Shown piece by piece: positions 20,166-53,790 of a stretch of 64,000 nucleotides of DNA (the stretch's first letter is position 1; each line of letters starts with the position of its first letter). This stretch comes from Bordetella ansorpii (GTDB taxonomy: Bacteria > Pseudomonadota > Gammaproteobacteria > Burkholderiales > Burkholderiaceae_B). Location of the stretch: positions 186,001 through 250,000 of the forward strand of contig NZ_FKIF01000008.1 of NCBI RefSeq assembly GCF_900078705.1. Direction: 5' to 3'. Below the pieces are notes generated by a model that worked only from the letters and a program-made list of their open reading frames with translations, searched no databases and was not told the origin of the DNA. The translations under genes were made by a program, and so were the position numbers.

Positions 20166-20172
20166 TGCAGTT

Positions 20173-20876: not shown

Positions 20877-20888
20877 GCCGCATTCTCG

Positions 20889-20909
20889 GGTGATAGTCTT
20901 GATATCACC
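20889..20909. promoter_or_regulatory. Inverted repeat GGTGATA-N7-TATCACC, candidate operator
   Basis: Perfect 7-base arms, 12 bases upstream of the XRE-like gene start. The half-site GGTGATA also occurs in the switch region around 20099-20105, consistent with shared recognition by the related repressors. Confidence 0.5.
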
Positions 20910-20910
20910 A

Positions 20911-20944
20911 AAAAGGAATTATGAAAAATTCCTTTTAAGGAATT
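20911..20944. promoter_or_regulatory. Triple AAGGAATT repeat with perfect 10-base inverted pair
   Basis: AAAAGGAATT and AATTCCTTTT are separated by six bases, followed directly by a third AAGGAATT. Placed between the 624-residue zinc-ribbon gene and the XRE-like gene. A candidate operator or a hairpin ending the upstream transcript. Confidence 0.5.
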
Positions 20945-20981
20945 GGAACGCTGACCAAGGTTTTCGGCGGCCATGCAATAT

Positions 20982-22856
20982 CTACTTGTCCGTGCCCCGG
21001 ATGAGCGAATTCAGCCAGCGCGGGCTGACGTCCAACTGGTCTGCTATCGCTTCACGAGTGCGATGCCGTAGCCGCGCGTGAATCCAGTGAATCAGCCGAT
21101 ACGTTGCACCGAACTCCATGCTGATCGCTCGAGATGGTGCCTGCGAAGCACGCCCGCATGTGTCGCACCGATAGATCGGCTGCGTCACGTGCAATCGCGT
21201 CGGAAGCCCGTCGATCGGGACGTCGCGCACGATGATGGTCCTGTTCTCATGCGCGGTAACTTTCCTCGAGCCGCAGTGCATACAACGGTCAACCTTCTGA
21301 GTCGATACGAGTGAGACGTGGTGCTGTCCTTTGCGCCGTCGGCAACTGCTGACGACATAACCGTTCAGATGCACTGTCCCGTTGAGATCGAGCAGTTCTT
21401 GGGCTTGCCCACGATCCCGCAACGCACGGACGATCCTGTGGACAACCGCACGGGACGCACCAGTTTGGGCAATTAGTTCGTCGACGGACTGCGATTTCAC
21501 TCGATCCGCCAGCCACAGGAGGAAACGATCGGTCGCTGCCAGTTCCAGATCGATGCCGGCGGTGAGCTGCTCGGTATTCTTCCAGCAGCGTTGGCATTGC
21601 ATCACGATCGAGCAGAAATCGAGTTTGACGGTAGCGTCGTCAGTCGGGATGTCCCAGACTGTGCGCCCCCGCCGCCAAGTCGGTTTGATGTCTGTCGACT
21701 CGCAATGCGGGCACATTGACATGGTCGGTTGAGCCTGTAGGCGGATCAGCACCTGTCGCTTGCCACTTGCTGGGGCCGTCTTCCTGGTCCGGCTTGTCTT
21801 CTTGCTTCCTGTGCGCGGACCGCCAACGACGATAGTATCCGGTGGTGGGATCCAGCCAGGTATCGGCACCGCATCAGGGGCAACGACCTGGTATATACCC
21901 GTGCTATCCAGGATCTTGCTAACTGCGCTGGCCGTTATGCCGCTGTCTTTTGCTATGTCTTCCTGGCTACGAGATGCACCCTGGGCGCATACCCAGTCGA
22001 CAGCACGCCGCGTCACCCGCGGCGCGGTATGAAGACCAGCGAGACTGGGTGCATCAATCCGAAACTGCCGCCCGCAATCCAGGCAGCGTCGGGTCTCGTA
22101 GTTCGATAGGACGAGCAGAACCTGGCGACCATCATGCGGCTCATCGCAGATTGTCAGCTCTTGGGTTTTGACGATCTTGCTACGGATCGATCCGCAGTCC
22201 GGGCATGCATGTGCCTGTTCGACCACCTTGACATGAACGATCCAGACTCTCGGTAAGGCGGCGTGATGGGTGGCCTCATATCCCGCCAAATCGAACCAGG
22301 CTGGAGCGCCTTCCACGAGATCGCCGTGTGTGCCAGCCTGATCCAAGAATATTTGCTGAATCGATGAGCGGCGCGCAGCCGTCTCGATCCTGACCTCCTC
22401 GACATCCCGATGGGCCTGCGTGGCAAGCCACTTTGCTAGGCGCTCGCTTATGAAAAGCCGCGTGTCGATCCCAGGTGGCGCGTCGAGCGGTCTGCGACAC
22501 AGCGTGCATCGCTGACCCCAATGGTGCAGCCATAGCGTGACACTTTCATCTTTGTAGGGTAGGTTCCGAATGCACAGCATTGGTAACGCGGTGGTGAGCC
22601 ACGGCTGGCCCCGAGAGCAGCGCTCACAATCTAGGGAAGGAGAGGCAAGCCGAACCTGTAGCGAATAGCCGCGTGCTGTGCGTTTCGCGCCGATAATTGT
22701 GTAGCCGAGCCCGCGCCAGTAGTCGTCCAAGGCCGCTCGTCTCAATGTTTCGGCGTCATCCTGATGTGACCTTATACTGTGTTCGCCTCCCGGTGCGTGA
22801 AGATCGAGAGGCCGACCCAGGTCCTCCGGTGGGTCGGATGAAGAAGTGGAGCCCAT
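20982..22856 (-). CDS. Four-module zinc-ribbon/HTH protein related to ISL3 transposase DNA-binding domains, no nuclease
   Basis: A 624-residue protein of four successive modules, each a CxxC pair, 34-40 residues, a second CxxC pair, then an HTH. Cysteine pairs: 77/80 and 117/120; 218/221 and 258/261; 382/385 and 421/424; 525/528 and 564/567. HTH examples are SRSQEDIAKDSGITASAVSK and TREAIADQLDVSPRWLNSLI. Segments such as RRCLDCGRQFR and VRDVPIDGLPTRLHV are typical of the N-terminal zinc-binding domain of ISL3 transposases, but no DDE catalytic domain follows. It is therefore probably a sequence-specific DNA-binding protein built from transposase parts. A GAGG site precedes the ATG. It closes the island beside the XRE switch. 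Confidence 0.75.
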   Translation of the reverse strand: MGSTSSSDPPEDLGRPLDLHAPGGEHSIRSHQDDAETLRRAALDDYWRGLGYTIIGAKRTARGYSLQVRLASPSLDCERCSRGQPWLTTALPMLCIRNLPYKDESVTLWLHHWGQRCTLCRRPLDAPPGIDTRLFISERLAKWLATQAHRDVEEVRIETAARRSSIQQIFLDQAGTHGDLVEGAPAWFDLAGYEATHHAALPRVWIVHVKVVEQAHACPDCGSIRSKIVKTQELTICDEPHDGRQVLLVLSNYETRRCLDCGRQFRIDAPSLAGLHTAPRVTRRAVDWVCAQGASRSQEDIAKDSGITASAVSKILDSTGIYQVVAPDAVPIPGWIPPPDTIVVGGPRTGSKKTSRTRKTAPASGKRQVLIRLQAQPTMSMCPHCESTDIKPTWRRGRTVWDIPTDDATVKLDFCSIVMQCQRCWKNTEQLTAGIDLELAATDRFLLWLADRVKSQSVDELIAQTGASRAVVHRIVRALRDRGQAQELLDLNGTVHLNGYVVSSCRRRKGQHHVSLVSTQKVDRCMHCGSRKVTAHENRTIIVRDVPIDGLPTRLHVTQPIYRCDTCGRASQAPSRAISMEFGATYRLIHWIHARLRHRTREAIADQLDVSPRWLNSLIRGTDK

Positions 22857-22974
22857 CTCAGCCTCGTTGTGCGAGACAACCTTCTGGTCGTCAAACTCCT
22901 TTGGGTTTGCACCCAGGTCGCAAGGGGCAAACTACACCCCCGTCACATGCACACGCCAAACCCCTGACTTTATC

Positions 22975-22997
22975 GCCGTGGCGTCAGCCGCCACGGC
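22975..22997 (-). terminator. Hairpin after the filamentous-haemagglutinin gene
   Basis: GCCGTGGCG and CGCCACGGC pair perfectly with a 5-base loop, 19 bases after the stop of the exoprotein gene. The following minus-strand bases (GATAAAGTC) are not a good T-run, so a Rho-independent terminator is possible but not certain. Confidence 0.45.
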
Positions 22998-23016
22998 TTC
23001 TCAGGACTCCTCGGAG

Positions 23017-26000
23017 TTACTGCGCGTTAAAGCTCTCCTGGGCAGTCAGTTGCGCCCGGTCGCCGGGATTCAGCGGGCCATTGGCCACTACCTGGATCGT
23101 CTTGTTAGGATCGTAGGCGACCTGCTGGCCAAGCCCCTGGACCCGGGGCCCTGACCGCGAGGTATCAGGCGGTGACGCGGCTGGTACTGCGCCGTCATCG
23201 CCAAAGCCCAAGATCTGCACGCTGATGATGGACGGCAGGTTCTGGCGGGCCGCGGCCTGGCTCTGGCGCATAACGTCTTGCGCGGCCGTGGCAGCGCTCG
23301 AGGCTGCCGCGCTTGCCGAGGTCAGCGCCCCGACGTTCACCGCAGCGATGACAGGTACGCCGGTGGCCTCTCCCTTGGCCTGGATGTTGGCCGCGTTGAC
23401 GACTTGCAGGGCCGCGACGTTGACGCTACCCGAAGACCGAATCCCGGCTTCGCTCGCATCGATGATGCCTTCCGGTGCGATCAGATTGATGCCACCTGGC
23501 GGCACCTCCGGCACCGGGTCTTGGGTCGAAACACCCGCCCCGGTGGCTGGCACGCTGGGCGATTGTGACACATTGCCCATGCCGTCGTAGGCACGCAGCA
23601 GCGGCGTGTAGACCACTGTGCTCTTGGCACCGCGGCCGGCGTTGATATTGCCGTATTGCGACCAGGCCAGGATGTCGCCGCCGTAGGTGGTCATGATGCG
23701 CGACAGTCCCAGCAGGATGCTGTCGCTGGAGTACACCTGGATGTTGCCCGAGCCCTGGGTAATTAGGCCCGCAGGCGGGACGCCATTCGCAGTGGCTGGG
23801 GGTACGCTTTCTACGCCGATGGTCGTGCCGCCAGCGGGCGCTAGCACCTGGATGTCGCCGCCGCCCAAGGTGCGGATGGCGCCGTTGGTGGTCGTACCCT
23901 GGAACAGCGTCAGATTGCCGCCACGATCGATGGGCGCGTACATTTCCGCATAGCGCTGATCCTCCGAATCGCGCAGATTCGCAATGACAGCCGCTTTCTG
24001 CGTGGCGGACAAATCAGCGGCGGCCACGCCCAGCCGGACTGCCTCTTCACTGATGGCGATATCGGCAGCCAAGCTGGACTGAATCCGCGCCTGAATATCC
24101 GTGCCCGTGTCATAGGTTGGGAAGAGCATAGCGATGGCGGCGCGGCCGCGCAGATAGCTGCCCGTGCGCGGACTGCTGGCATCGTTGTACTCGCGCCCGC
24201 CTGCATTCAGTTCGGCGTAGTACAGGTTGCGCGCATACACGCGCTGCTGTTCGGCCGGCAGGCGGCGGAAGAAGGCCTGGGCTTGCGCTTCACGTTGGCG
24301 AGCCTGTTCCTGAGCAATGGCCGGGTCGGTGTCGGCGCCGGGCAGCGAAACCGCTTCGAAAACCAGCGGTGCGCCGTCGTCGGTGGCGCGCACGCCTGTG
24401 TTCGTGGCGAACCGCGTGCTTAGCCAATTGACCAGGCGAAGCTGACTGGTCTGCTGATACTCGTTGGTCAGATCGCGCCGGGCAAAGGCCGGATCGTTGG
24501 GGTTGGCGGCGTAGGCGGCGTTCAGCTCGGCTTGGCGTTGATCAAGGAAGGTCTGCGCCCCGGCCTCGTCGCCGGTGTAGCCGAAGTTTTCTCGCAACCA
24601 GTCGGCCAGCGTCAGCTCGCTGCCGTAGGTCATGACTACCTTGCCAGGCTGCCTGGCCAGCGCGATATCCGGGTCAGCCAGATTGGCTCCGTCCAAATAG
24701 TGCAAGGCGAACCCGGTGTAATCGACTGGGTGATCGCCCAGCCCCACACTGACCGCGATGCCTGCACCACCTGTTCGGTTCTCGCCTCCGTTGATCAAAC
24801 CCAGGCTTTCTAGTTGAGCCGTGTCACCTTGGTAGAGGTGGCGTCCGGCACTGACTTCCAAGAGGCCGGGGCCGGCGATGCGTGCATTAGCGTACTGAAT
24901 ATCGCGCCCAGCCGAAATCATCGAGATATCCGTGCTGTGGTAGTTCAGAAACACTCCGCCAGCGTTGATAATATCGCGCCCTGCGCGCATACGCACCGGC
25001 TTGCCGATCATGTATAGAAGCTCATCAGCAGACTGCCAGAATGATCCCACCGAAACGCCGACAATATCCCCGCTATCTGCGTAGACCCGCACAGGAGTAG
25101 GATCATTGCCATAGAGCGAGCCTGAAGCAGTATTTGCACCGAACGCGAATAGATCGTTGCGTGCGCCCGTCTGTGTGTTGTCGACGAGGTCACTAAATCC
25201 ATCGGGAGACCGACCGATGAAGGCGGGTCGGAACGGCGTCGGTATGGCGGTGGAGGCAGCTCCCGAAGGGTCTAGTCCAAAGCCTCCGCCGTATATGGAG
25301 CCACCTGCCAACAGGTTCATCCAGCCTACACCTTGAGCATTGGGAGCAAAAATCAAACGGTTGGCGCCGGTGCCGCCGGAGACCGTACCGTTGCGCGCAT
25401 AGTAGATGTTCCCTTGTGCTGCGACCGCGTCGAAGCGCGATGGATAGTTCATCTCGAGAAGTGTCGTGTTACCGACAACGGTTCCCGCACCGGGGGCATA
25501 GTGTTGCATTGTGACTGGCGTGAGGTTCCCGCCAGCGGCGAAAAGGCTGACTGCTGTCGTACTTGTCCACAGCGAATACCAACTGATTCCGCCTCCGGCG
25601 TAGCTCTCGAACGGTAAGTAGTTGCTTTGGCTCAGTCGGCCAGGGTCGCCTACGCCGTCGATGACCAAATCTCCGCGGGAAAGAAGTGAGGTTGTTGCAT
25701 CGCCCAGCATCACAACAGGTCCGCCACTAGGGCGGCCCAGACTGGGATATAGCGGATCGACTGCCCGCGCATCGGTAACATCCACGACGCCATAGAGCGG
25801 GTCTACCCGGCCGATGGCGCCTGCTTGCAGAGCCAGCGACCCGCGCAAGTTGGTGAAGACTCCGTTCAGGTCGCTGGGAATGCTGCTGTAGTTCAGGCGG
25901 CCCGGTTCCGTGCCGCTGGCTCGAACCCCCTCGTTGAGCGATCCTCCAACGGCCAAGCGCAAATCCCCCCCTCCGGTGAGAGTCAGTTTCCCATCGACCA

Positions 26001-37811: not shown

Positions 37812-39023
37812 TCATAGAACGAGCTGGTTCATTTCCATGATGGGCAGCATCACGGCCAGCACGATAGTGAGCACCAACCCGCCCATAATCACTGTCATCA
37901 AGGGCTCGAGCAGGGCGGTCATCGCCATCGCCCGGCGTTCGAGATTTTTCGACAGTGTGTCCGCCGCCTGATCGAGCATCAGGGGCAACTCCCCCGTTTT
38001 CTCGCCGCTGGCCACCAGCCGGCAAAGCAGCGACGGGAAATATTTCTGTGCTTTGAGCGCCGCGCCCAGGCTCGTGCCACCCTCGACCTGGCCGGCTGCC
38101 TCCAGCACGCAGGCACGCAACCGCTGGTTGCCCAGGGTCTGGCGCGCCGCCTCCAGCGCGCGCATCAACGGCACACCCGCATCGGTCAAGATCGCCAGCG
38201 TCGACGCAAAACGCGCAGTGTTGACTTCCAGGATGAAGCGGCCCATCAAGGGCAGGTGCAGCAGACGGCTGTCCCAGGCCAGGCGCACCGCACTATCACG
38301 CAGCCGCCAGCGCCAGTACCCGAATCCCGCGGCGAGCGTGAGCGCCGTCAGCCAACCCCAGTTGCGCACGAAGTCGCTGGCCATCAGCATCACCTGCGTG
38401 AGCATGGGCAGATCCCGCTTCGCTTGCGAGAACGCGCCAATGACCTGGGGAACCACATAGGTCAGCAGGAAAATCACGATGCACACCGATATCACCGCGA
38501 CCACCGCAGGGTAGATGAAAGCGGTCAAGACCTTGGCCCGCAGCACGTCGCGCGACTCGATGTAGTCGGCCAGGCGCCGCATCACCTGGGCCAGATCGCC
38601 CGAACTCTCGCCGGCGGCCACCAGCGCCCGATAGACCTCGGGATAGTCCCGTGGCCGGCGTGCCATCGCATCGGCCAGGCGCATGCCGCCGCGCACATCT
38701 GCCCGAACTGCGGACAAGCTCTCGGCAATATGTTTCTTCTCGGCCTGCTCGACGACACCGGTCAGCGCTTCCTCCAACGGCAGGCGTCCGGTCAATAGAC
38801 TCGACAACTGGCGGGTCGCCCAGGCCAGTTCGCTGTCCTTGAGCTTGGGCGCAAAGAGGCTTGCCCCGGCCGCGCCCGCCGAGCCTTGCGCCTCGGCCAC
38901 TTCCAGCACAGCCAAGCCGCGCCCGCGCAACTGCGCGCGCGCCGATCGGGGGCTATCGGCGTCGAGCTGCCCGCGCACGATCTTGCCCGCTCCATCAGCC
39001 GCTCGGTAGCGAAAATGCGCCAT
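37812..39023 (-). CDS. gspF: Type II secretion inner-membrane platform protein GspF
   Basis: A 403-residue PilC/GspF protein with the duplicated GspF domain (VYRALVAAGESSGDLAQVMR and LVASGEKTGELPLMLDQAAD) and three membrane spans, for example VVAVISVCIVIFLLTYVVPQ and LLEPLMTVIMGGLVLTIVLA. It couples the ATPase to pseudopilus assembly in the inner membrane. Starts 5 bases after gspE; last gene of the gspG-to-gspF run. HxcS-equivalent. Confidence 0.93.
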   Translation of the reverse strand: MAHFRYRAADGAGKIVRGQLDADSPRSARAQLRGRGLAVLEVAEAQGSAGAAGASLFAPKLKDSELAWATRQLSSLLTGRLPLEEALTGVVEQAEKKHIAESLSAVRADVRGGMRLADAMARRPRDYPEVYRALVAAGESSGDLAQVMRRLADYIESRDVLRAKVLTAFIYPAVVAVISVCIVIFLLTYVVPQVIGAFSQAKRDLPMLTQVMLMASDFVRNWGWLTALTLAAGFGYWRWRLRDSAVRLAWDSRLLHLPLMGRFILEVNTARFASTLAILTDAGVPLMRALEAARQTLGNQRLRACVLEAAGQVEGGTSLGAALKAQKYFPSLLCRLVASGEKTGELPLMLDQAADTLSKNLERRAMAMTALLEPLMTVIMGGLVLTIVLAVMLPIMEMNQLVL

Positions 39024-39028
39024 GTGCT

Positions 39029-40531
39029 TCAGTCCTCGCCCGTCACGCGCACCAGTTCTTCCAGCGACGTGACTCCGCTGTCGACCCAGCGCTGGCCGTC
39101 CTGGTACATCGTGCGCAGCCCCGCCTTGATGGCGGCCGCGCGTAGCGCCTGCTCGGAGACTTGTTCGTGGATCAGCGCCTGAACCCCCGCATCCACCGTG
39201 AACAGTTCATGCACGCCGGTGCGCTTGCGATAGCCCTGGTTATCGCATTCCGCGCAGCCCACCGGCTCATAGACGACACGGCCAGTGGGCAGCGTCACCT
39301 GTCGGCGGCACACCGGACACAGGCAACGGATCAGGCGCTGCCCCAGCACGCCCAACAAGGTCGAAGCCAGCAGAAACGGCTGCACGCCCATGTCGATGAG
39401 CCGGGTGACCGCAGCGACCGAATCATTGGTGTGCAGCGTGGCCAGCACCAAGTGCCCGGTCAAGGAGGCCTGCACTGCTATCTGCGCGGTCTCCAAGTCG
39501 CGGATCTCGCCGATCATGATGACATCCGGGTCCTGGCGCAGAATGGATCGAAGCGCCTCGGCAAATGTCAGACCGATTTCGCTGTTCACCTGGATCTGGC
39601 TGATGCCAGGCAGGTCGTATTCCACCGGATCTTCCACCGTCATGATCTTGTTGGTGGCAGCGTCCAACTGGCCCAGCGCCGCGTACAGCGTGGTCGTTTT
39701 GCCGCTGCCGGTCGGCCCTGTGACCAGAACGATGCCGTGCGGCATATGCACCATCGCGTCCAGGCGCGTGAGTAGCGTCGGGTCCATGCCCAGCCGTTCC
39801 AGCTTCAAGCGACCGGCTTCTTTGTCCAGCAGGCGCAGCACCGCGCATTCGCCATGTCCAGTGGGTACGGTCGAGACCCGGATGTCGATCGGGCGCCCGC
39901 CCACACGCAGTGCGATACGCCCGTCTTGCGGCAAGCGTTTTTCGGCAATGTCCAGGTGCGCCATGATCTTGATGCGCGAGATCAAGGCCGCGTGTAGCGC
40001 TTTGCGCGGCCGCACCACCTCACGCAACGTGCCATCCACGCGGTAGCGCACCACCGAATGCACCTCGTAGGGCTCGATATGGATGTCGCTGGCCCCCTCA
40101 CGCGCGGCCTGGGTAAAGAGCGCATTCATCATGCGGATTACCGGCGCATCGTCCTGCGCGTCCAGCAGGTCCGTCACCTCCGGCACATCCTGCATCAGCC
40201 GGTCCAGATCCACATCGTTCTGCGCCTCGCCAACCACCGATGCCGCGTCGTTGGTCTCGGCATACGCGCTCGCCAACAGCCCTTCGAGTTCCTGGTCGTC
40301 GATTTCTCGCACGTTCGTGGCCTCTGGCCGAATCGGGCGGCGCAAGGCCTCGGTGATGGCCCAGCCCGGCGTCTGCGGACTGATCAGCAGCTCGGGCCGG
40401 TTCTGCTCGTCCCAGCGCAGTAGGAGACGGTTGGCGCGTGCCCACGCATACGGCAGCGGCCGGCGTGTCGATGCCGAATCCTCGGCGCTCGCGTCGTCGG
40501 CGGTAGGGGAGTTGATGATGACGTCGCTCAT
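39029..40531 (-). CDS. gspE: Type II secretion ATPase GspE
   Basis: A 500-residue secretion ATPase: [20 protein letters not shown], Walker [14 protein letters not shown] near residue 275, Asp/His boxes and Walker [21 protein letters not shown], and a zinc-binding loop CPVC with CAEC. It powers pseudopilus extension at the cytoplasmic face. The N-terminal 120 residues are acidic and variable. Its ATG overlaps the gspD stop, so translation is coupled. HxcR-equivalent. Confidence 0.95.
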
Positions 40532-43392
40532 GGCCCGACCACCAACTCCGGCTGATAACCCAGCTCGCGCAACACCTGCACCGCGTTGTCGACGGCGCGC
40601 GGATCGCGAGGTACGTCCACGCGAACCACGTAGCCCATGCCGCCCGGACCGGTCAGGCTGTACGCCTTCAAGCCGCTGATGCGCGTGCGCTGCACGGCCT
40701 GCTCGGCTTCCTGCTCGGTGCGGGCCTCGGTAAATTGCAGAATATTGGTATTGCCTTCCGGTCTGCCGTACAACGCGGCCGGATCGCCTGATACGGTCAG
40801 GCCGGCCGGCAGGCGCGTGCGCACCGGCTGCGGCGCCTCTTCGCCGCCGCTGTTGACCAGCCCCGGACGAAACGTGCTGGAATTCGTGCTCTCCGGTCCG
40901 GGCTGGCTCAGCGTCTCGGCCGCGGCCTCGGGGCGCAAGTCGTAGGTCTGGCGGTCCCGCGTCGATTGCAGGCCGATCGGCGGCAGCACGGGCGAACCCA
41001 TATCCGGTAACGCCCAGTTCTCGGGCGGCTGCACGCGGCCCTGGGCGCGTCGCATGTAGTCGTAGCGGCTGGCAGTCAGGCCCCGGCCATCCTGCGCATT
41101 GCGCACCACGTAGGGTCGCAGAAACACCATCAAGTTGGTCTTGACGCGGCTGCGCCGGTCATAGCGAAACAAGGCGCCCAGCCCTGGGATCGAGCCCAGG
41201 ATCGGCACGGCATCGCGCGTGGTCTGCACACTGTCTTCGAGCAAGCCGCCCAGCACCATGATCTGCCCATCGTCGAGCAGCACGGACGTGTCGATGGCTC
41301 GCTTGTTGGTCACCACGCCGCCCAGGCTGGCCGAGGCGACGTCGTCCAGCGTACTGACCTCCTGGTAGATGTCCAGCTTGACCGTGCCGCCTTCCGATAT
41401 CTGCGGGCGAATATTGAGCTTCAAGCCCACGTCTTCCCGCTCCACGGTCTGGAACGGATTGTTGCTGCCCCCGCCGCCATCGGTGATGTACTGGCCGCTG
41501 ACAAAGGGCAGCGTGCGCCCGACCATGATGCTGGCCGCCTCATTGTCTAGCGTCAGCAGGTTCGGCGTGGACAGGATGTTCACGCCGCTGCGCGATTGCA
41601 GTGCGCGAGCCAGCAGTTCGATATTCAACACCTCGCCCACACCTGGCAGGTTCACCGTGCCGTTGATCAGACCCACGCTCAGACCACCTGGCGCGGCATC
41701 GAGCGTGGTCCTGGCGCTGGCGTTGATGCCCGACCCCAAAGAAGATCGGTTACCCGCGAACCAGCGGCCATTGCCGGTCATCCACTGGATGCCGAGTTCG
41801 GCCGCGTCATCCTCATTGACTTCGACGATCAGGCTCTCGACCAGTACCTGCGCGCGGCGCTGATCCAGCATGTCGATGACCTTGCGCAGGCTGCGGTAGA
41901 TCGGCTCCGGGCCGGAGATGATGAGCGCATTGGTGGTCGCGTCGGCCTGCACAGTCATGCCGCCGGCCGCGAAGCCCTGCAGCGGCCCGGACCCGTTCAG
42001 GTTCGAGCTGGTGCCCGTGCCCGCTCCGGTGGCGCCCTGGCCGGCAGCGCCGCGCAGGCTGCTACCCAGCCCCGATGTGGTGTTGCCACTGGTATTGCGC
42101 GTGCTGTTGGTGCCGCTCGATGTGCTGTTCGTGTTCGATCCGTTGTTCGTTCCTGACTGCATGCCGCCCGCGCCCAGCGCCGCGCGCACAGCGGCATCGG
42201 CCCCGCTCGCCTGGCCCGAACTGCCTGGGTCCCCCGTGAGCACGCCGCGCAGCACCTCCGCCAGATAGGAGGCCTGCGCATTGCGCAAATACACCACATG
42301 CATGGTGTCCGGGTCGGCCTGCGCCTCATCCAGTTGCAGCACCAGGTCGCGCGCCAGCTTCGCGCGCGCCGGACTGGTGGCACGGATCACCACATTGTTG
42401 GCGCGCGGGTCGGCCACGATGATGATGCGCTGGGTGCCTTCGCCGCCTTGGGCCTGGGCGTCGAGCAGTTGATTGGCCACATCGGCAATGTCCACGGCAA
42501 TACCCTGGCGCAGCCGCACGACCGCCGTGCTCAATGAGGTGGGAGTGTCGATGCTGGCGATGATGCGCCCGATACGCTCCACGTTGTCCGCATAGTCCGT
42601 CACGACCAGGCTGTTGCTGCCGGCCGACGCGGTGATCGGGTTGTTGGTCGCGATCATAGGGCGCAGCACCGGGACCAGTTCGGCTGCGTTCTCGTAGCTC
42701 AAGCGAAAGGTCCGCGTGACGATCTCGCCCCCCGCGCGCGCCGGCTCGCTATCCCGGCCGGCACCTGGGCCGGCCGCGCTGCTCTGTACCGGCCCGCCTT
42801 GCAGCTTGGCGTCCGCCTCGGGCACGACGCGCGTGCCGCCGGCCACGTCCACCGCCGCAAAGCCTGCCATGCGCAAGGAGGCCAGCAGCATGTCATACGC
42901 CGTGCCAGCCGAGACGCGGCCCTCGGACACCAGCGTCAATTGGCCCTTGACTCGCGGGTCGACCAGGAAGTTGCGTTTGGTGAACCCGGCCATGACCCGC
43001 AAGACCGCAGGAATGTCCGCATCCACGAAATTCAACAGCACCTGCTCGCCCTCATCTTCCTGAGCGCGTGTGCTATCGCGACGGGGCGTCGGCGCGGCCG
43101 TGCGGGGCTGGACCGCAGGCTCGGTGCGCACGCGCGGCGGCGCCTCGCTGCGGGCGGGCCGGGAGGGCGCAGTCTCCCGGCGCTCGGGCACATCGCTGAC
43201 GGGCTGCGCCTGAGCGCTTGTCAGCACGCGCGGCCCGGCACTGCGTTGCAGATCGGCCACCGGATCGTCCGCGGCCTGTCTCGGTCCCGGTTCAGGCGGC
43301 GCGGCGCAGCCAGCCAGCGCTGCCATTACCAGCAGGTGCAGCATTTTGATGCGGCCACAACGGCGCGCAGAGAACGGACCGATCCTTGTCAC
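40528..43392 (-). CDS. gspD: Type II secretion secretin GspD, predicted lipoprotein
   Basis: A 954-residue outer-membrane secretin. The N-terminus ends in a lipobox (MAALAGC, Cys29), so it is probably lipidated, as HxcQ of P. aeruginosa is, and could reach the outer membrane without a pilotin. N-domains follow ([25 protein letters not shown]-type repeats), with a Gly/Asn/Ser/Thr-rich insertion of about 60 residues in N3, then the secretin core ([32 protein letters not shown]). The C-terminal 100 residues look like a SPOR-type domain ([20 protein letters not shown]), unusual for GspD. ATGA overlap with gspM; an internal ATG at 43344 also gives a lipoprotein signal. Confidence 0.93.
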
Positions 43393-44156
43393 GATTTGTC
43401 CTTCGGAGGTGTGCGCGGGCCGAGAATGGCCAGGCCCGAGAGTCGGCCAGGCTCGGGATTCCGTACCGCAGCGTCAGGGGAAGAATCCTCATCGGCATCG
43501 CGCGAGACTACCGTCAACCCCGGCGGTTTGGCGCGCTCGATCTCCGGCCGCGTCAAGGTCACGCGCCGGGGGGAGAGCCCCAGCTCGTGCGGGCCGTCTA
43601 GCAGCCAGGGCACCAGGGCCTGTACAGGGGCGTCGGTGAACCGGATGGTCCAGTCCCCTGGCCGCGCGTTGGCGTGCGCTGTTTTGGACGGTTCCGCCTT
43701 GGTTTTTTCGGCTTCGGTTTGTTCGGTCTCGGTTTTTTCAGCCTCGGTCGGTTCGGTTTTTTCCGAGGCCAGCGCCAGGACATAGCTGTTTGCCAGGCCC
43801 GCCGCATCCAGCGACTGCGCCAGCGCCTGTTCGCTGACCACGGCAGACGACGCGCCCGCGTCTGCACGATGGCGTGCCGCGTCGCGCACGATCGCATCGA
43901 TCTCGGTGCTTTGAGCGGCCAGTTGCGGTAGCTCCCCTTCCCAGCGCTCGATGCGCGCCAAGGCGGGCGCGATGCCTAGCACCCATGCGCCGGCGACCAG
44001 GCAAATCACCGCGCATAATACGGATAAACGCTTCTCACGGGCCGCCCGCTGTGTCCACCAGGCCCGCGCTTGCGCGCCTGCCGCCTCCCACTGCTGACGC
44101 CACGCGGCAGGCAGGGCAGGGCGCTTGAGCCGGGGCGCTTTCGTGGATATTTTCAT
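43389..44156 (-). CDS. gspM: Type II secretion platform protein GspM
   Basis: A 255-residue bitopic inner-membrane protein: basic cytoplasmic N-terminus, one span (LSVLCAVICLVAGAWVLGIA), periplasmic C-terminal part (DWTIRFTDAPVQALVPWLLD). Assigned GspM/HxcZ by position between gspL and gspD. Odd feature: a Glu/Lys/Thr-rich run of about 30 residues (TEPTEAEKTETEQTEAEKTK) made of repeated EKTE-like units, encoded by near-repeats at about 43678-43770. ATGA overlaps with gspL and gspD. Confidence 0.8.
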   Translation of the reverse strand: MKISTKAPRLKRPALPAAWRQQWEAAGAQARAWWTQRAAREKRLSVLCAVICLVAGAWVLGIAPALARIERWEGELPQLAAQSTEIDAIVRDAARHRADAGASSAVVSEQALAQSLDAAGLANSYVLALASEKTEPTEAEKTETEQTEAEKTKAEPSKTAHANARPGDWTIRFTDAPVQALVPWLLDGPHELGLSPRRVTLTRPEIERAKPPGLTVVSRDADEDSSPDAAVRNPEPGRLSGLAILGPRTPPKDKS

Positions 44157-45523
44157 GGCGAGCGCCTGGCCACAGTGACGGCCGCAGCGGATTGGGCAGG
44201 CCGCCCCGTCGTTCCCTCTGCCGAGCGCACCGCGGCCTGCGGCGCCGGCGCTGCGCGCCGCAAGCGCCAGCCTCGCTCAATCGGTTCGACTTCGAGCCCA
44301 GCCTGCTCGGCGGCCGCGATCCAGGCGGGTTGCGCCGGTTCGCCGGCCTTCGCCGGCTGGTCGCTGGCACGGCGCCTGCCCGACGACCCGGTGCCCGGCG
44401 CCGGACTGCTCGCCGCCGACACCGGCGTGACTGCCGGCGCCCCGCTCGTACCGCGCATCAACACCACATCCAGCGCGCCATCACGGTAATCCAGGCGTTG
44501 CACCTGGCCGGCCGCGAATGCCATATGCTCGCGGGCGCCTTCCAACAAGAAGGCCAATTCCGCTTCCTCTGCCTGCGCTGCGGCCACCTGCTGCGCGTCC
44601 CGTTGTTGCCGCGCCTGACGCAGCGGCTCGACGACCGTGCGCACGTTCGGAAATGCCGTTTTGACACGCTGCGCGATATCGCTTTTGAGCGTGCGGCCTG
44701 CGTGATCCAGACGCGCGGCGTATATGTTCAGGCCGCCAATCCAGATCAGCGCCGCCGCGGCGGCCCAGGCGGTTGTCCGCAACCAGCTCGAGGCGCCCGT
44801 GCCATCCTGAACGCCCAGCGTTTGCACACCGATCGACCACGGTGGCGACTGAACCTGCCAGCACGCCTCCAGCGGCACGGCGGTTGCGGCGATCAGTCCT
44901 TGCGCTGACCACCATGCCGGCACTTCGCCAATCCAAACCATCTGTGCCAGTCCCTCCTGGGCACTCTGCGCCAGCAGTCGTGCTTTGGCCGCGTCGGCTG
45001 CGATTGGCAGCACGAATCCTTGATCCTGGGCAGACCGCACGGCCACGTAGTCATCTCGGCACCAGGCCACCCAGCCGCCGTGCGGCGCGGGCAAGAAAAA
45101 CGGTGTTGGCCACAGCGTGCGCAGCATCAGTCCGCACTCGCGCAAACAGTGGCTCGCGGCGCGCGCATCGTCCCGATCGACCCAGCCGACCGAGACGCCG
45201 CCATCGGCTGCGCGTGGCCCATAGCCGATCAACGTCGTCGACGGATCTCCCAGCATGAACGGCTCGATCGCGGCGGTGACCGCCACGCGCCTGTCCTGCG
45301 CGGACAGCGGCGGCAGACGAATCTGCGCCAACGTCAGATCTGCCGAGTGCAGGATGGCGTCCACCTTCGCGCCCGGCCAGCGCCGGCCCAGTTCAGCCAA
45401 CGTTTGCTGTCCGCGCTCGATGGGGGGCGCTGCGCGGCTATACGCGGCGAACTCCAGCACCGAATCGGGCTGGACATCCCGCAACGGCGGCAAGACGAGG
45501 CGCAGTGCTGGCAACCCTTTCAT
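44153..45523 (-). CDS. gspL: Type II secretion platform protein GspL
   Basis: A 456-residue protein with the cytoplasmic actin-like GspL fold (ADLTLAQIRLPPLSAQDRRV, SVGWVDRDDARAASHCLREC), one membrane span (TAWAAAAALIWIGGLNIYAA) and a periplasmic part. It links the ATPase GspE to the inner-membrane platform. Start at 45523, with GGGAGGG upstream and ATGA overlap with gspK. The periplasmic end carries a proline/alanine-rich linker. Confidence 0.87.
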   Translation of the reverse strand: MKGLPALRLVLPPLRDVQPDSVLEFAAYSRAAPPIERGQQTLAELGRRWPGAKVDAILHSADLTLAQIRLPPLSAQDRRVAVTAAIEPFMLGDPSTTLIGYGPRAADGGVSVGWVDRDDARAASHCLRECGLMLRTLWPTPFFLPAPHGGWVAWCRDDYVAVRSAQDQGFVLPIAADAAKARLLAQSAQEGLAQMVWIGEVPAWWSAQGLIAATAVPLEACWQVQSPPWSIGVQTLGVQDGTGASSWLRTTAWAAAAALIWIGGLNIYAARLDHAGRTLKSDIAQRVKTAFPNVRTVVEPLRQARQQRDAQQVAAAQAEEAELAFLLEGAREHMAFAAGQVQRLDYRDGALDVVLMRGTSGAPAVTPVSAASSPAPGTGSSGRRRASDQPAKAGEPAQPAWIAAAEQAGLEVEPIERGWRLRRAAPAPQAAVRSAEGTTGRPAQSAAAVTVARRSP

Positions 45524-46524
45524 GCGCCCTCCCGGCTCCAAACAAGGTGCGCGGCGGCACCATCGCGTGCAAAGAGCGCACGCACCGGCATGACGGCCGT
45601 CGGGTTCAGCCTTGCTGCGCCGACCAAGGTGAACCAGTCGCTATGCACCGCCACCCGCACGCTGTTCGGTGCCAGATCCTGCATGTTCAAGCGGTTGACG
45701 AAGTCCGCATTGTTCAGAAACCACTGCCCGCCATTACGCTGCGCGATCAGGCCCCTGGCCTGCTCCAGGCCCAGGCCAGGCACCCAGACGGCCAGCACCT
45801 CGGCGCTGGCCGTGTTCGCATTGACCAGGGTCACGCCAGGCAGCAGCGTCAGGTGCGGGCGCAGTTTGGCGATGACGGCCTCGTCCACGCCCTGCACACT
45901 GCGCAGGTCATCGATCGACCGGGGGAAGGGCGCTTGGGCTTGCTGTGCGGCGCGCTGCGCATCGGCATCCTCGGCCGCCAGCGAGACGCCATCATTGCCC
46001 GAGCCGGGCTGCGAGATGAGGACACGCTGCGCGATGCGATCGGCGATCTCCGGCGCCACGTCCACCATCGTGCAGAGCCTGCGTAGTTGGTCCACCGCGT
46101 AGGTATCCAATGCGCCGTTTGAAATGAGGTTGCGCAGGTTGTATTTGCCTTGCTCGTCCTCAATGCGTCCGACAAAAACCGGCAACGGGCGCGCTGTGCG
46201 CGTGCCATCCGCCAGCCGCGTATCGACGATCGGCTGTGCCCAGGCGCCATCGCTGTGTGTCTGCGACGTCCGCGCGCCATCCTCACGCAACAGGCGGGAC
46301 GCGCTTTGCAGGCCGCCGCGCACGCTGGCTTGCAATTCGGCACGGACCTGCTGGCTCTGGACGGCACGCACATAAGTCGTTTGGCGCTGCATCAGTGTCG
46401 CCACGATGACGGTAGTCACCGCGACGGCGAGCAGCGCCACGATCACGGCCATGCCGCGCTGCGTGGACGGCGGTGCGCAATGCTGTGCGTGACGCCCGGT
46501 GCCGGGCCGATGATCGAGCTTCAT
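45520..46524 (-). CDS. gspK: Minor pseudopilin GspK
   Basis: A 334-residue protein with a prepilin-type N-terminus (RGMAVIVALLAVAVTTVIVA; Gly then hydrophobic helix lacking Glu at +5, as usual for GspK), the large alpha domain with a helix-hairpin-helix (PGVTLVNANTASAEVLAVWV) and NRLNMQDLAPNSVR. GspK caps the pseudopilus tip with GspI and GspJ. Starts 12 bases after gspG and overlaps gspL by four bases. Confidence 0.9.
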   Translation of the reverse strand: MKLDHRPGTGRHAQHCAPPSTQRGMAVIVALLAVAVTTVIVATLMQRQTTYVRAVQSQQVRAELQASVRGGLQSASRLLREDGARTSQTHSDGAWAQPIVDTRLADGTRTARPLPVFVGRIEDEQGKYNLRNLISNGALDTYAVDQLRRLCTMVDVAPEIADRIAQRVLISQPGSGNDGVSLAAEDADAQRAAQQAQAPFPRSIDDLRSVQGVDEAVIAKLRPHLTLLPGVTLVNANTASAEVLAVWVPGLGLEQARGLIAQRNGGQWFLNNADFVNRLNMQDLAPNSVRVAVHSDWFTLVGAARLNPTAVMPVRALFARDGAAAHLVWSREGA

Positions 46525-46536
46525 CCTCGGCAGCCG

Positions 46537-47016
46537 CTACAACTGCCAGGAACCGATGTCGGTATCGACGCCCTCGCCACCGGGCTCGCCATTCGCACCG
46601 AAAGAATAGATGTCGATCTCGCCGTGCTCGCCCGGATTGGCGTATTGGTACGGATTGCCCCAGGGATCGTTAGGCACGCGATCCAGATACGAGCGCCAGT
46701 TGTTGCCCGCCAGGCCAGGCGGTTTTTCGGCCAGGGCCCGCAGGCCCTGATCCTCACTGGGGTATCGCCCTTGATCAAGCCGATACAACTGCAGGGCTTG
46801 CATCAGCGCACTGATATCCTGGCGCGCTGCAACCACACGCGCTTGGTCGGGGCGATCCATGATGTTGGGCACGATCAGCGCCGCCAGGATTCCCATGATC
46901 ACCACCACGATCATGATCTCGATCAGCGTGAAACCGCGCTGGCGTAGAGATTGGCGGTTCCTGCTTGAGCGTAGATCCCTCTGCATCGCGTGAGGGGCGC
47001 GGTGGCTGTCTGACAT
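46537..47016 (-). CDS. gspG: Major pseudopilin GspG
   Basis: About 159 residues with a clear prepilin site (RG then FTLIEIMIVVVIMGILAAL) and the conserved GspG C-terminus (GLRALAEKPPG, YLDRVPNDPWGNPYQYANPG, SFGANGEPGGEG) that binds calcium. The leader is unusually long. The start at 47016 has TGGAG upstream; the frame continues to 47052. First gene of the gspG-K-L-M-D-E-F run. The prepilin peptidase needed for cleavage is not in the window. Confidence 0.92.
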   Translation of the reverse strand: MSDSHRAPHAMQRDLRSSRNRQSLRQRGFTLIEIMIVVVIMGILAALIVPNIMDRPDQARVVAARQDISALMQALQLYRLDQGRYPSEDQGLRALAEKPPGLAGNNWRSYLDRVPNDPWGNPYQYANPGEHGEIDIYSFGANGEPGGEGVDTDIGSWQL

Positions 47017-47052
47017 CACATGGACTCCAGAAGTAGCTAGCGACATGGTCAT

Positions 47053-47608
47053 CGGCGCTCATGTCAGAAGCATGGACGAATGTCTTGAGATCAGGGCCGA
47101 CCTCGCAGAACCGCCCGGCCGACGGCGCGCCGGTAACACGAAATGGCCAGGAGAAGGAAACTGGTCGTGCCATGTATTCACGCAGCAACACTCCCGTGTT
47201 GTCCCGTCATTCCTTTCACGGAACAGTCATAAATATCCGCGTAGAATCCCAAATTGGGCTCTACGGCCATGAAGTGGCTGACGATAGTTCGCTATCCGAG
47301 GCTTTGCTTCCATGCACGTCCAAGCGCTAGATTGGTCGCTAGAGCCCACCTTCTTTCCCGCCGGGCCGGCACGCCGGTCCGGCGCGGTACTCCTCTCGCC
47401 CCCCCACGGGCGTCTGTCCGACAAGGCCGCAGCAAAGCGGTCCCCGCACCGCCTACCTACTCGATGCTGATTTCGTGCTGTCCGATCTCTGGTGCTGTGC
47501 GATCTGACGGGACCGCGGCAAGGACCTCAAATCCTACTCGTCACATATATCGAAAATTTGACAAGATCTCCTGTCATTTGGCCAGGTTCGAGTGTTTACG
47601 TCTGGGGA
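47053..47608. other. 556-base non-coding gap inside the type II secretion cluster
   Basis: Lies between gspJ and gspG, which are usually contiguous. I see no credible gene. It contains a GC-rich inverted repeat (about 47359-47384: CGCCGGGCCGGC with GCCGGTCCGGCG, one mismatch, two-base centre). It also holds an AT-rich stretch near 47541-47580 with TTGACA and a TGACA/TGTCA inverted pair. It probably holds a separate promoter for gspG-F. Confidence 0.5.
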
Positions 47609-48235
47609 TCAGCCCCGCAGGCTGAACACCCGGCGGTAGGGCAGCGGCCTGGATGCCGACCCTTGCGTGATGACGACCTCGAGGCCCAAGGCAGGTGTTT
47701 CGGAAGAGCCCGGCGCAGGCAAACGCACCCAGCCGCGTCCCGGCATCAAAGCCCGGACTTCAAAATTGGTGATGTCTTCAACGGCCACGGCCGCCATTGC
47801 GGCTGCGGGGGCAGGTAAGGGGTAGTGCTCCGCAGCCGGGCCGGCTGCGCGATACAACCTCGAGCCGGCGCGCCACCATTGCACCCGCTGCCAGGTGCCC
47901 GGCCGGCTACCCGCCCGCACGATCTCCAGCCGCAGTGCACCACTCGAGCCCGCCAGTGCGGACACCGAAGGGGTGACCGGGATCGCATCCGTGGCGCGTT
48001 GCGCGGGCACTTCGATGGTCGAGCGCCAGCCCACGTCGCGCTCCATCTGGTCGAAGGCCTGCACCAGCGTATTGACCTGTATGGTGGCGTGATCCAGATG
48101 CTCGCTCACGCGGATGGCGTTGGTGATCGCCCGCCAAGCCATGATCGAAAGGAGTGACATGATGAGCATGGCCACCATGACCTCAATGAGCGTCAATCCC
48201 TGTTGCTTGGCTGGCGAGCGCGATGGATCAGGCAT
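47609..48235 (-). CDS. gspJ: Minor pseudopilin GspJ
   Basis: A 208-residue protein with prepilin motif QG-LTLIEVMVAMLIMSLLSI and GspJ-type domain (AFDQMERDVGWRSTIEVPAQ, RLEIVRAGSRPGTWQRVQWW, LEVVITQGS). Part of the GspH-I-J set; starts 21 bases after gspI. It builds the pseudopilus tip complex with GspI and GspK. Confidence 0.9.
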   Translation of the reverse strand: MPDPSRSPAKQQGLTLIEVMVAMLIMSLLSIMAWRAITNAIRVSEHLDHATIQVNTLVQAFDQMERDVGWRSTIEVPAQRATDAIPVTPSVSALAGSSGALRLEIVRAGSRPGTWQRVQWWRAGSRLYRAAGPAAEHYPLPAPAAAMAAVAVEDITNFEVRALMPGRGWVRLPAPGSSETPALGLEVVITQGSASRPLPYRRVFSLRG

Positions 48236-48256
48236 GATCTTGCTCTCCCGTATCGT

Positions 48257-48655
48257 CTACTGCGGTTCGACCACGCCTTGCAGCGTGGCCAAGCGGGGGT
48301 GGGGCTGGCTCGGTCGATAGACCTGAACGGTCACCCGGCGCGCGCCGCCAGTGAGTGCGACCGTCTGCGTCTCGCAGGTGAAGGCATGCGCGCCTTGCGG
48401 GCAGGGCGCGCGCGCAGTCCCCGGCGCAGGCAGGGCGGTGTCGATCTGCAGTTCGACGATCCGGTTTTGTGCCGAGAGTAGCGCGAGCGAACGGTCGCGC
48501 ACCGCGTCATTGGTCCCGGCCAGCAAGCCCGTTGCGCGCGAGATCGCTGTCAGAGCGAATGCCATGATTGCCACCGCCACCAGCACTTCAATCAGGGACA
48601 GGCCGCGTTGGTGGCGCCGATCGCGGGTAGGGCAGACGAGTGCATTAGCAGACAT
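48257..48655 (-). CDS. gspI: Minor pseudopilin GspI
   Basis: A 132-residue protein: prepilin motif RG-LSLIEVLVAVAIMAFALTAI and RSLALLSAQNRIVELQID, typical of GspI. It initiates pseudopilus assembly with GspJ and GspK. Starts 12 bases after gspH. Confidence 0.9.
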   Translation of the reverse strand: MSANALVCPTRDRRHQRGLSLIEVLVAVAIMAFALTAISRATGLLAGTNDAVRDRSLALLSAQNRIVELQIDTALPAPGTARAPCPQGAHAFTCETQTVALTGGARRVTVQVYRPSQPHPRLATLQGVVEPQ

Positions 48656-48667
48656 GACAATGACCCC

Positions 48668-49180
48668 CTATTGCACCGTGTAGGTGCCACCTGGCGTACG
48701 ACGCAGCACCACATGCGCCGAGCCTGACGACAACGTGAGATCCCAGGCCTCTTGAAACCATTCGTCCGTCAGGACGATGGGGCCGGCCGGCTTGACCACG
48801 ATCTCGCCCGATTCCCAGCGGCGTGGCCGTAATGTCTCGTCGCGGGCGAAGTCGTCCAGGCCGGCGGCGGTCGAGACTTGCGGCACGCCGCCGACATCAA
48901 CCCACACGCCGCGCACGAAGCGATAGCCTTGCTCATCGGCCTGCCACGCGATGACGCGCCCATCTATGCGTACCAGGTTCTGCGCGGTAATGAACTGGCT
49001 GGCCAGCCGTTGTGCATCCTGGCGCAGCGCACGCCCCGAGTCGCTAGGGATACGCATGGCCACCGACGCCGTGGCCACGCCGACAATGACCAACACCACC
49101 ATGACCTCAAGAAGCGAGAAGCCCCGCTGAAGGTCACGGCTGGCACGGCGCATTGACGAGCAAAACCGATGTGCAGGCAT
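48668..49180 (-). CDS. gspH: Minor pseudopilin GspH
   Basis: About 170 residues with prepilin motif RG-FSLLEVMVVLVIVGVATAS and the GspH beta domain (VRIDGRVIAWQADEQGYRFV, WDLTLSSGSAHVVLR). First gene of the minus-strand secretion cluster, divergent from gspC. Start choice is uncertain: ATG 49180 (AGGG upstream), TTG 49204 and ATG 49153 are all in frame. Confidence 0.88.
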   Translation of the reverse strand: MPAHRFCSSMRRASRDLQRGFSLLEVMVVLVIVGVATASVAMRIPSDSGRALRQDAQRLASQFITAQNLVRIDGRVIAWQADEQGYRFVRGVWVDVGGVPQVSTAAGLDDFARDETLRPRRWESGEIVVKPAGPIVLTDEWFQEAWDLTLSSGSAHVVLRRTPGGTYTVQ

Positions 49181-49266
49181 CGGCGCAACCCTATTTGCAA
49201 TCAAGGACTCGTATGATAAGAGACCGAACGTGATCGCAGTATGACCTGAAGTCTTGTGATTTTTCG

Positions 49267-49294
49267 GCAGGTCCGCCGCACCGGCGGCACCTGC
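49267..49294 (+). repeat. Hairpin in the gspC leader
   Basis: GCAGGT-CCGCCG pairs with CGGCGG-C-ACCTGC with one bulged base around a tiny loop, 33 bases before the gspC ATG in the gspH/gspC divergent region. A possible leader structure. Confidence 0.45.
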
Positions 49295-49327
49295 TGCTGC
49301 CTGCTCTGGCCACCCAACGGGACCGCC

Positions 49328-49780
49328 ATGTTGACACGCTTTGCCCCTTCCGCGTCGCTATCCAAACCCGGTCTGCTGCGAGCCGGCGCGTTCGCGTTGG
49401 CCTTGACCGGCATCGTGTTCTGGACCTACCAGATCACCAAACCATTGCCGCAAGCCGTACCTGCCTCCACTCCGCCGGCGATCAGCAACACGGAACAGGG
49501 CAGCGCCATCGCGAACTGGCTCGCCCCTGGACCCGCCAAGGTCCAGGTCAAGGTCGTCGGTGTCTTGGTCGCCGGCCAGCGCGGCGGGGCTGTGCTGTCT
49601 GTCAACGACGGCGCCCCCCGCGCCTACGCGGTGGGCGAGCAACTGGCCGCAGGCGTGGTCCTCGAGCGCATCGATCCCGATGCCGTCGTGCTCGAGCAGT
49701 CGGGCCGGGCGATGCGTCTACCGCTTCCCGCCTTGCCGGCGGGGCCTGAAGACGGCATCGTCCGTGTCCCGTCAAACTGA
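49328..49780 (+). CDS. gspC: Type II secretion inner-membrane protein GspC (short)
   Basis: A 150-residue bitopic protein: one N-terminal span (AGAFALALTGIVFWTYQI), then the HR domain (IANWLAPGPAKVQVKVVGVL, GGAVLSVNDGAPRAYAVGEQ, LERIDPDAVVLEQSGRAMRL). It lacks the C-terminal PDZ or coiled coil of the classical GspC, like HxcP. It contacts the secretin N0 domain. Alone on the plus strand, divergent from the rest of the cluster. Confidence 0.82.
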   Translation: MLTRFAPSASLSKPGLLRAGAFALALTGIVFWTYQITKPLPQAVPASTPPAISNTEQGSAIANWLAPGPAKVQVKVVGVLVAGQRGGAVLSVNDGAPRAYAVGEQLAAGVVLERIDPDAVVLEQSGRAMRLPLPALPAGPEDGIVRVPSN

Positions 49781-52905: not shown

Positions 52906-53148
52906 GCGATCGGTTTTTTGAAACCTGAGCGTGTATGTCCGCATAACGGGCGATAATCCAAGTCCCGACATTTGTTCATATGCTCGTCTAATTACCGAGG
53001 GATACTTATCGTTTTCGTGCGTGCTAGCAGCATCCTCGACGACCATTCTTGGCCCCTTCGCCAATCCGAGCCTGTCTCGAGTTTGTCACAGTGACGGCAC
53101 GACCCTGCGTGCCGCGCCTCAGCGGGCGCTCCCGTGCGAGAGACAGGC

Positions 53149-53790
53149 ATGAACGAGACCAGCGATACGGATGACCCGCACTGCCCGGCACCGACAGCGG
53201 TCAGTGCCGCGCCCCTGCAGGACGCGCTTGTAGCGCACTACGACTGGCTAAGCGAAAGACTCAATCGCTTCCTGAGCTGCTCGGACCTGGCGATGGAGAG
53301 CTTGCACGAGACCTGGCTCAAAGTCGTCACGATGCCGGTGCCGACGTCGCCGATTCGCCAGCCCCGCGCATATTTGTTTCGCTTGGCCTGTAACTTGGCG
53401 CTCGATCGCCTTCGTGCGGATAGCGGTTACGGTCGTCGCTCCGACGAAGGAGAGGCGTTCCTTCATGAGATCCCAGACGAGCGTCAAGGCCCGATGGAGC
53501 AAACCGAGGCTCGCGCCGCGCTACGCAACGTGAGCCAGGCCCTAAAAGGGCTATCCACGCGCCAGCAAGCCATACTGATAGATGCGCGTATCGAGCAGCG
53601 GCCGTATCATGAAATCGAGCAGCGTTACGGCATTGCTCGCTCGGTCCTGCGGCGTGAGCTGCGAGATGCGCAACAATTCTGCCTCAGCCAGATCGGCGAC
53701 ACGCTGCTTGAGCTGCCCCGTTATCATCCCAAGCCGCACTCGCGCAAACTCAAAGCCCATATCAAGCGACAGCGTGCCGCCCATTTTTGA
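53149..53790 (+). CDS. ECF-type RNA polymerase sigma factor
   Basis: A 213-residue sigma-70 family protein. Region 2: AMESLHETWLKVVTM, RQPRAYLFRLACNLALDRLR. Region 4: ALKGLSTRQQAILIDARIEQ, then YHEIEQRYGIARSVLRRELR. The FecI-like pattern and the location beside an Hxc-type secretion cluster and PdtA-like exoprotein recall VreI (PUMA3) of P. aeruginosa. No anti-sigma or TonB-like receptor gene accompanies it in the window. Start at 53149 with GAGAGAC upstream. Confidence 0.83.
   Translation: MNETSDTDDPHCPAPTAVSAAPLQDALVAHYDWLSERLNRFLSCSDLAMESLHETWLKVVTMPVPTSPIRQPRAYLFRLACNLALDRLRADSGYGRRSDEGEAFLHEIPDERQGPMEQTEARAALRNVSQALKGLSTRQQAILIDARIEQRPYHEIEQRYGIARSVLRRELRDAQQFCLSQIGDTLLELPRYHPKPHSRKLKAHIKRQRAAHF

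Follow-up and report, generated by a model that had tools for sequence, protein, structure and literature searches.

Transposases of the ISL3 family (IS204/IS1001/IS1096/IS1165; NCBIfam NF033550, with Pfam PF14690 and PF13542 in addition to a DDE domain) grip the ends of their element with an N-terminal domain. That eukaryotic hosts have turned the DNA-binding domains of transposases into regulators is well documented; in bacteria, TldR proteins derive from TnpB. The Hxc system of Pseudomonas aeruginosa is under the control of VreI. TldR proteins are presented in the excerpted text of one report as exapted transcription factors of TnpB type that are guided by RNA (PMC13418256), and the protein considered here, P0001, would resemble them, as they are portrayed there, in being a transposon protein turned transcription factor, whereas it would differ in being a protein array derived from a DDE transposase. 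A second point of comparison is the Hxc/Psp (DING) locus of Pseudomonas fluorescens SBW25, which brings together a T2SS, a protein with a haemagglutination domain and an exoprotein that binds phosphate (PMC2225411); the locus of P0001 recalls this layout of T2SS, phosphate-binding and haemagglutination-domain genes, and the excerpt of that report makes no mention of an ISL3-module protein. VreI, as it appears in the excerpt of a further paper (PMC7035377), is grouped here with the Hxc T2SS as a comparison system. Extra T2SS loci likewise occur in Bordetella ansorpii, where T2SSb and T2SSc have been described and T2SSb was judged likely to be horizontally acquired, with no modular protein mentioned in the corresponding extract (PMC5045587). 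Among the literature matches listed, which consist of titles and the starts of abstracts and come from a coverage that leaves out most subscription journals, there are no bacterial arrays of transposase N-terminal domains, and the bacterial examples among them are proteins of a different sort. Regulators that began as transposon proteins are a known kind, of which the P0001 array would be a new variant; if the reading developed below is true, it would provide a clear bacterial case of a nuclease-free tandem array of a DDE-transposase DNA-binding domain that is kept in a secretion locus.

P0001 is a protein of 624 residues encoded on the minus strand at positions 20982..22856 of the 64,000-nucleotide stretch of DNA that was analysed (hereafter the window). 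Its eight CxxC motifs, at residues 77/117, 218/258, 382/421 and 525/564, form four pairs spaced by 36, 36, 35 and 35 residues (modules 1-4), a number of motifs reached in none of 10,000 residue shuffles of the protein (mean 0.67, maximum 6), and the layout of strands, CxxC, 35-36 residues, CxxC and HTH is present in four copies. Module 1 (residues 52-172, CERC...CTLC plus HTH, 22341..22703, minus strand) is the weakest and has no Pfam match of its own; module 2 (residues 190-316, CPDC...CLDC plus HTH, 21909..22289, minus) and module 3 (residues 369-477, CPHC...CQRC plus HTH, 21426..21752, minus) are delimited, like the other two, by our own HMM, and module 4 (residues 495-611, CMHC...CDTC plus HTH, 21024..21374, minus) gives the best match to Zn_ribbon_ISL3. 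NF033550, the profile of ISL3 transposases, matches four stretches of P0001 (E 2e-29) with a score of 102.8 bits, below its whole-protein family cut-off of 180 bits. PHROG 5749, annotated "transposase", matches three stretches (E 4.2e-40), the best of which covers only positions 24-131 of a profile of 421 positions. Our own N-terminal HMM, for which we used the first ~140 residues of 17 ISL3 transposases (15 taken from order-draw loci, two from the family draw), scores modules 1 to 4 at 23, 44, 36 and 65 bits, or 169 bits in all against 5.8 for the best of 1000 shuffles of P0001; it finds an ISL3-type zinc ribbon in all four modules and covers the HTH part after the ribbon in each of them. Taken together, NF033550, this HMM and the CxxC pairs describe P0001 as a fourfold repeat of the DNA-binding unit found at the N-terminus of ISL3 transposases, each module resembling that domain over most of its length, and bear out the four ISL3-type zinc-ribbon/HTH modules of the original prediction. 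The further claim that the modules cover nearly the whole protein was too generous, as the HMM-covered part amounts to 474 of the 624 residues, about three quarters.

The search of each module against ISL3 families that had been proposed as a check gives a divided answer: our own HMM matches all four, and the Pfam Zn_ribbon_ISL3 cut-off is passed by module 4 only, modules 2 and 3 having a Pfam score below the cut-off or none, module 1 having no Pfam match at E up to 10 and HTH_Tnp_ISL3 reaching 17.7 bits, under its cut-off of 27.4. The predicted absence of a DDE domain holds: a complementary HMM of the DDE part of the same transposases finds nothing better than E 0.66 on P0001, its modules or its relative (see below), and returns no line for any frame of the six-frame translation of the 64-kb window at E up to 10. 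Pfam contains no ligand-sensing or catalytic domain for P0001, and none of the PADLOC families matches it, i.e., no known anti-phage defence protein is recognised. AlphaFold2, run on a two-row alignment, gave a poor model (pLDDT 54.5, pTM 0.27) whose low-confidence secondary structure runs four times through a block of strands and then three helices, so that structure prediction, another of the proposed checks, returns the repeat but not a dependable fold; a search of solved structures gave a best E of 0.083, which is chance level. The net charge of P0001 is +17 (pI 9.1), with module 2 at 0, and that of its relative is +19 (pI 9.5). At the level of sequence we consider derivation from ISL3 transposases and a modular architecture well supported, and P0001 presumably binds DNA.

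The sole multi-module relative found, at 33-34% identity to P0001, is a B. ansorpii protein (L039/L004) of 490 aa as its longest frame, with three modules and no DDE domain; the whole protein passes the Pfam cut-offs for both Zn_ribbon_ISL3 and HTH_Tnp_ISL3 (29.1 bits for the latter). Met41 would be a likelier start of this protein, because a strong hairpin lies across the nominal one (L009 14746-14777). The modular proteins differ from ISL3-family transposases in having three or four copies of the domain and no DDE, and the four-module layout sought in homologues is matched in kind but with three modules. A truncated transposase, the case that the prediction had set against itself, was rejected: no DDE domain is found in the protein or in the six-frame window, the homologue elsewhere has none either, and since that homologue has three modules, P0001 is not a freshly truncated transposase.

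At E<=1e-3, five of 200 genomes match P0001 in the family draw, namely its own, that of the B. ansorpii relative (G068) and three with ISL3 transposases, two of which have transposase-length frames (447 and 449 aa) and the third of which (G188) has them in pieces. Matches are found in 2 of 15 genomes of the genus (its own and G068), in 13 of 399 in the order draw (its own and 12 with one module in frames of 460-507 aa), in 3 of 398 in the phylum draw, and in 2 of 60 relatives of G068 (G068 itself and one transposase); the module profile matches 18 of 369 genomes in the class draw, with several modules per frame in the own genome only. These draws overlap, so that the counts are not additive, and the candidates scored per genome numbered at most three in the order and phylum draws and at most 11 in the class draw. 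A scan of genome_contigs with two peptide patterns returned 128 stretches, of which one, B. ansorpii SMC-8986T, was confirmed; distant members may have been missed, since patterns taken from two sequences reach close relatives only. The ISL3 N-terminal domain is present in 101 ORFs across the loci examined, nine of them copies of the two modular proteins and the remaining 92 with no more than one domain each, leaving two members within the searched genomes. P0001 has no match in the phages and plasmids collections, nor do six peptide patterns match in viral_contigs, and a phage or plasmid gene was accordingly set aside as a candidate. A second copy in the own genome was likewise rejected: the match at C1:87178 (E 0.03) lies inside an ORF that by eye is outer-membrane transporter-like, and is noise.

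The original prediction placed the gene at the end of an island, next to a phage-like repressor switch. Comparison of the two genomes does not sustain this placement, as the neighbour common to both is a T2SS/PstS-like/haemagglutinin locus, one end of which is closed by the modular gene in each genome, with the common part on the upstream side of that gene. In the window, the immediate upstream neighbour is a haemagglutinin-type gene (23017..36051, minus strand; 4344 aa, with a TPS domain and DUF3739), beyond which lie a gene for a PstS-like periplasmic binding protein (PBP; PF12849; 36270..37604, minus), the T2SS genes F, E, D, M, L, K, G, J, I and H in this order (37812..49204, minus), gspC (49256..49780, plus), which is divergent from the other T2SS genes, and an ECF-type sigma factor gene (53134..53790, plus), relatives of which are found close to further T2SS loci of the same kind. 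Of the T2SS gene products, F, E, D, M, L (GspL_C), K, G and I score above the Pfam cut-offs of their protein-specific models, J matches T2SSJ but stays under the cut-off of that model, and H has an N-methylation motif only and is named by position. Identity to the B. ansorpii locus is 81% for GspE, 78% for GspG, 68% for GspD, 66% for GspF, 61% for GspH and GspI, 56% for GspK, 52% for GspJ, 51% for the PBP, 42% for GspL and 37% for GspM, and the haemagglutinins are 62% identical over 2914 aa. The order in B. ansorpii is T2SS, two PBP genes and modular gene, with the haemagglutinin gene on the far, gspC side in the company of FecR, ECF sigma, small TonB_2-type and DUF772 genes; the modular gene is followed by a MarR gene and then a FUSC gene rather than by a phage repressor, and past FUSC two further frames extend to the end of the stretch (L009), 3.7 kb beyond the modular gene.

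In the stretches examined of six further T2SS/PBP/haemagglutinin loci, no ISL3 domain was found (0/6). Four of these loci are in G181, G197, G138 and G044, genomes with no genome-wide match to P0001 in the family draw; the others are the second such locus of the own genome (C6; L055/L061/L130) and the second of B. ansorpii (L059/L065), neither of which has a modular gene in the stretches examined. The modular gene is thus an addition to one lineage of the locus. Its GC3 of 0.65, against 0.81-0.83 for GspE, GspD and the PBP, argues against a long joint history of gene and locus, though the haemagglutinin gene stands at 0.67.

The two modular proteins are most alike between modules of the same number (35, 35 and 31% identity, against 17-28% for other pairs), and when the seven modules are aligned with 33 transposase N-termini (40 rows), no column is invariant apart from those of the four cysteines and one arginine. 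In an 82-row tree, the first modules of P0001 (Pm) and of the B. ansorpii protein (Am) pair at 100/96 and the second at 100/90, the latter flagged as long branches meeting, and Am3 and Pm3 stand beside Pm4 (97/65 within 100/87); a 24-row tree gives the same pairings with less support. Because the modules pair in order between the proteins, the array is probably older than the divergence of the two loci, after which the number of modules has changed by one. This difference in module count makes the gain or loss of DNA-reading heads directly testable. A single origin of the modules was considered and rejected as an established result: the full tree sets all seven as one clade apart from 75 transposase N-termini (100/99), but this separation is lost in a reduced control, where, with the P0001 rows removed, the B. 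ansorpii modules split, Am2 falling with transposases (95/84) and Am1 joining Am3 (84/91). In a second control with Am1 and Am3, run as a quick tree only, the two join with 85; in the 24-row tree the modules are not joined and the forks are weak. The branches between modules and transposases are long, at about 0.8-1.3 changes per column, and one capture followed by internal duplication is a plausible history.

The explanation that we favour, and to which we give an even chance, is that P0001 is a nuclease-free, multi-headed DNA-binding protein of transposase derivation that has been kept at an Hxc-like locus, probably as a regulator. An ISL3-type transposase would have supplied its N-terminal zinc-ribbon/HTH domain, captured and strung into an array of three modules in B. 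ansorpii and four in P0001, and a Bordetella lineage would then have retained this array at one end of an Hxc-like locus with a T2SS, a PstS-like protein and a giant haemagglutinin. Each module would fold round one zinc and read a short segment of DNA, so that the array could recognise, with high avidity, a site that is long or multipartite, and the protein could repress transcription of the locus, of its own gene or of both, or serve them as an architectural regulator. As Pfam shows neither a ligand-sensing nor a catalytic domain, its activity would hang on its own amount or on zinc. The simplest reading is a regulator, probably of the T2SS locus or of itself; against it, six related loci manage without the gene, and the ECF sigma factor and FecR would be expected first as local regulators. 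A more far-reaching version, which we put forward tentatively and with less confidence, makes P0001 the bacterial counterpart of the poly-zinc-finger proteins of eukaryotes: the DNA-binding domain of a transposase in tandem array, changing in module number (three to four) and evolving fast in sequence, that would serve the host as a young regulator at a secretion/adhesion locus by reading a long composite DNA site.

Of the three roles originally proposed (host-encoded regulator, element silencer and target-site selector), the regulator fits best and the other two are not favoured, as no ISL3 transposase was matched in either genome: at E<=1e-3, an ISL3 transposase profile made of eight transposases matches only the modular genes themselves in the two assemblies, both drafts (10 contigs in one, about 30 in the other). 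P0001 therefore probably does not serve a resident ISL3 element. This result weighs directly on the silencer, in which a relative free of the catalytic domain would occupy the ISL3 terminal repeats and block transposition. The modules do stem from the domain with which ISL3 transposases grip element ends, and repression of a parent element by its own shortened transposase is known elsewhere, but the branches that separate modules from transposases are long, synteny is with the T2SS and not with an IS, and we think such a role quite unlikely. Selection of target sites in trans for a transposon, in the manner of TnsD/TniQ, is very improbable: arrays of zinc and HTH domains also occur in Tn7-type selectors, and a short gene with a DUF772 match lies on the gspC side of both loci, but these genes (259 and 267 aa) are far from the modular gene, Pfam finds no TniQ in P0001 at E up to 1 or in the relative and the seven modules at E up to 10, and the missing ISL3 transposase again tells against it.

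The modular gene could also be neutral or decaying debris, a duplicated ISL3 fragment on its way to being lost, and its presence in only 2 of 15 genomes of the genus, the 33% identity between the two proteins, the low Pfam scores of modules 1-3 and a GC3 unlike that of GspE, GspD and the PBP would all suit this account. What makes it unlikely in our judgement is that both frames (624 and 490 aa) have stayed open at such identity, in the same kind of locus and with module order kept, and that among the cysteines of the relative aligned to P0001 residues all 12 motif cysteines are kept, against none of the four others. Finally, the modules might bind protein or RNA rather than DNA and so provide the secretion locus with a scaffold; protein contacts are another use of zinc ribbons, and the T2SS neighbourhood is found in both genomes. 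Coverage by the ISL3 HMM of the HTH part after each ribbon, the three helices predicted there with low confidence and the basic pI speak for DNA instead, and we rate a scaffold as rather improbable.

For P0001 as a regulator, the DNA around the gene offers some candidate sites. An imperfect palindrome, GTTTGCACC-N10-GGGGCAAAC (22905..22932), about 50 nt upstream of the P0001 start codon, is a weak candidate for a self-operator; it was not seen in the stretches of the B. ansorpii modular-gene locus (L009, L129). This palindrome, in the form GTTTGC-N14-18-GCAAAC, is the only motif followed genome-wide; it has three sites in the own genome, the one at 22905-22932 included (two for the reversed control), and one in that of B. 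ansorpii (two for the reversed control). One of the other two own sites (L061:6824-6852; like the first of the form GTTTGC-N16/17-GCAAAC) overlaps the gspC start of the own second T2SS locus, a lead of little weight that was picked after the fact. The best 14-mer intergenic matches between the two loci, sought as a shared operator, are not clearly above shuffles (three per pair, none for the longest pairs), e.g., a match of 11 between the gspH-gspC stretch and the B. ansorpii modular gene start, with shuffles at 10, 9 and 9. Between the haemagglutinin stop and the modular gene there is a perfect hairpin of 9 bp (22975..22997) that may end the upstream transcript; it has no U-run and was not called in the terminator scan. 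Hairpins part the modular gene from the gene upstream in both genomes, which suggests that it has a transcript of its own, and no sigma-70-like promoter was found in 20300-23300, where 1.0 is expected in shuffles. The same interval contains 11 pairs of inverted repeats of at least 14 nt, counted with no shuffle baseline and all having one or both arms inside a gene; a single weak pair (18 nt, 78%; 20528-20545 and 23195-23212) brackets P0001, its arms inside the neighbouring genes. Direct repeats between 1-20400 and 20075-23060 include three of 13 bp and none longer, and give no clear att pair.

Several other features of the window were recorded. Just upstream of an HTH gene (20475-20876), overlapping perfect inverted repeats AAAAGGAATT/AATTCCTTTT and AATTCCTT/AAGGAATT (20911-20944) are operator-like. 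A gene for a tyrosine integrase with an Arm DNA-binding domain lies at 13859-15133, and genes for a DUF1173 protein and a RelB/PaaA2-type antitoxin at 17463-18794 and 16629-17093, respectively. PADLOC identifies a Gabija-type defence pair at 9505-13280 (GajA, E 2.3e-172; GajB, E 6.5e-157) and, at 2660-4979, a Type II methyltransferase-like gene (E 1.2e-121) beside an HNH-nuclease-like gene (E 2e-15), a pair that is likely to be restriction-modification; between these, at 6414-8441, are genes for a RecE-like exonuclease that matches phrog_434 (E 2.1e-81) and for a protein of phrog_1221 (E 4.6e-68). The short genes with a match to DUF772, a transposase domain, lie at 52126-52905 in the window and at L129:11570-12373 in B. 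ansorpii (30 and 24.1 bits, with a cut-off of 23.1), each near the ECF sigma gene of its locus; the one in the window also has a Phd/YefM match below the cut-off, and similar short genes were noticed by eye in L063, L065 and L130.
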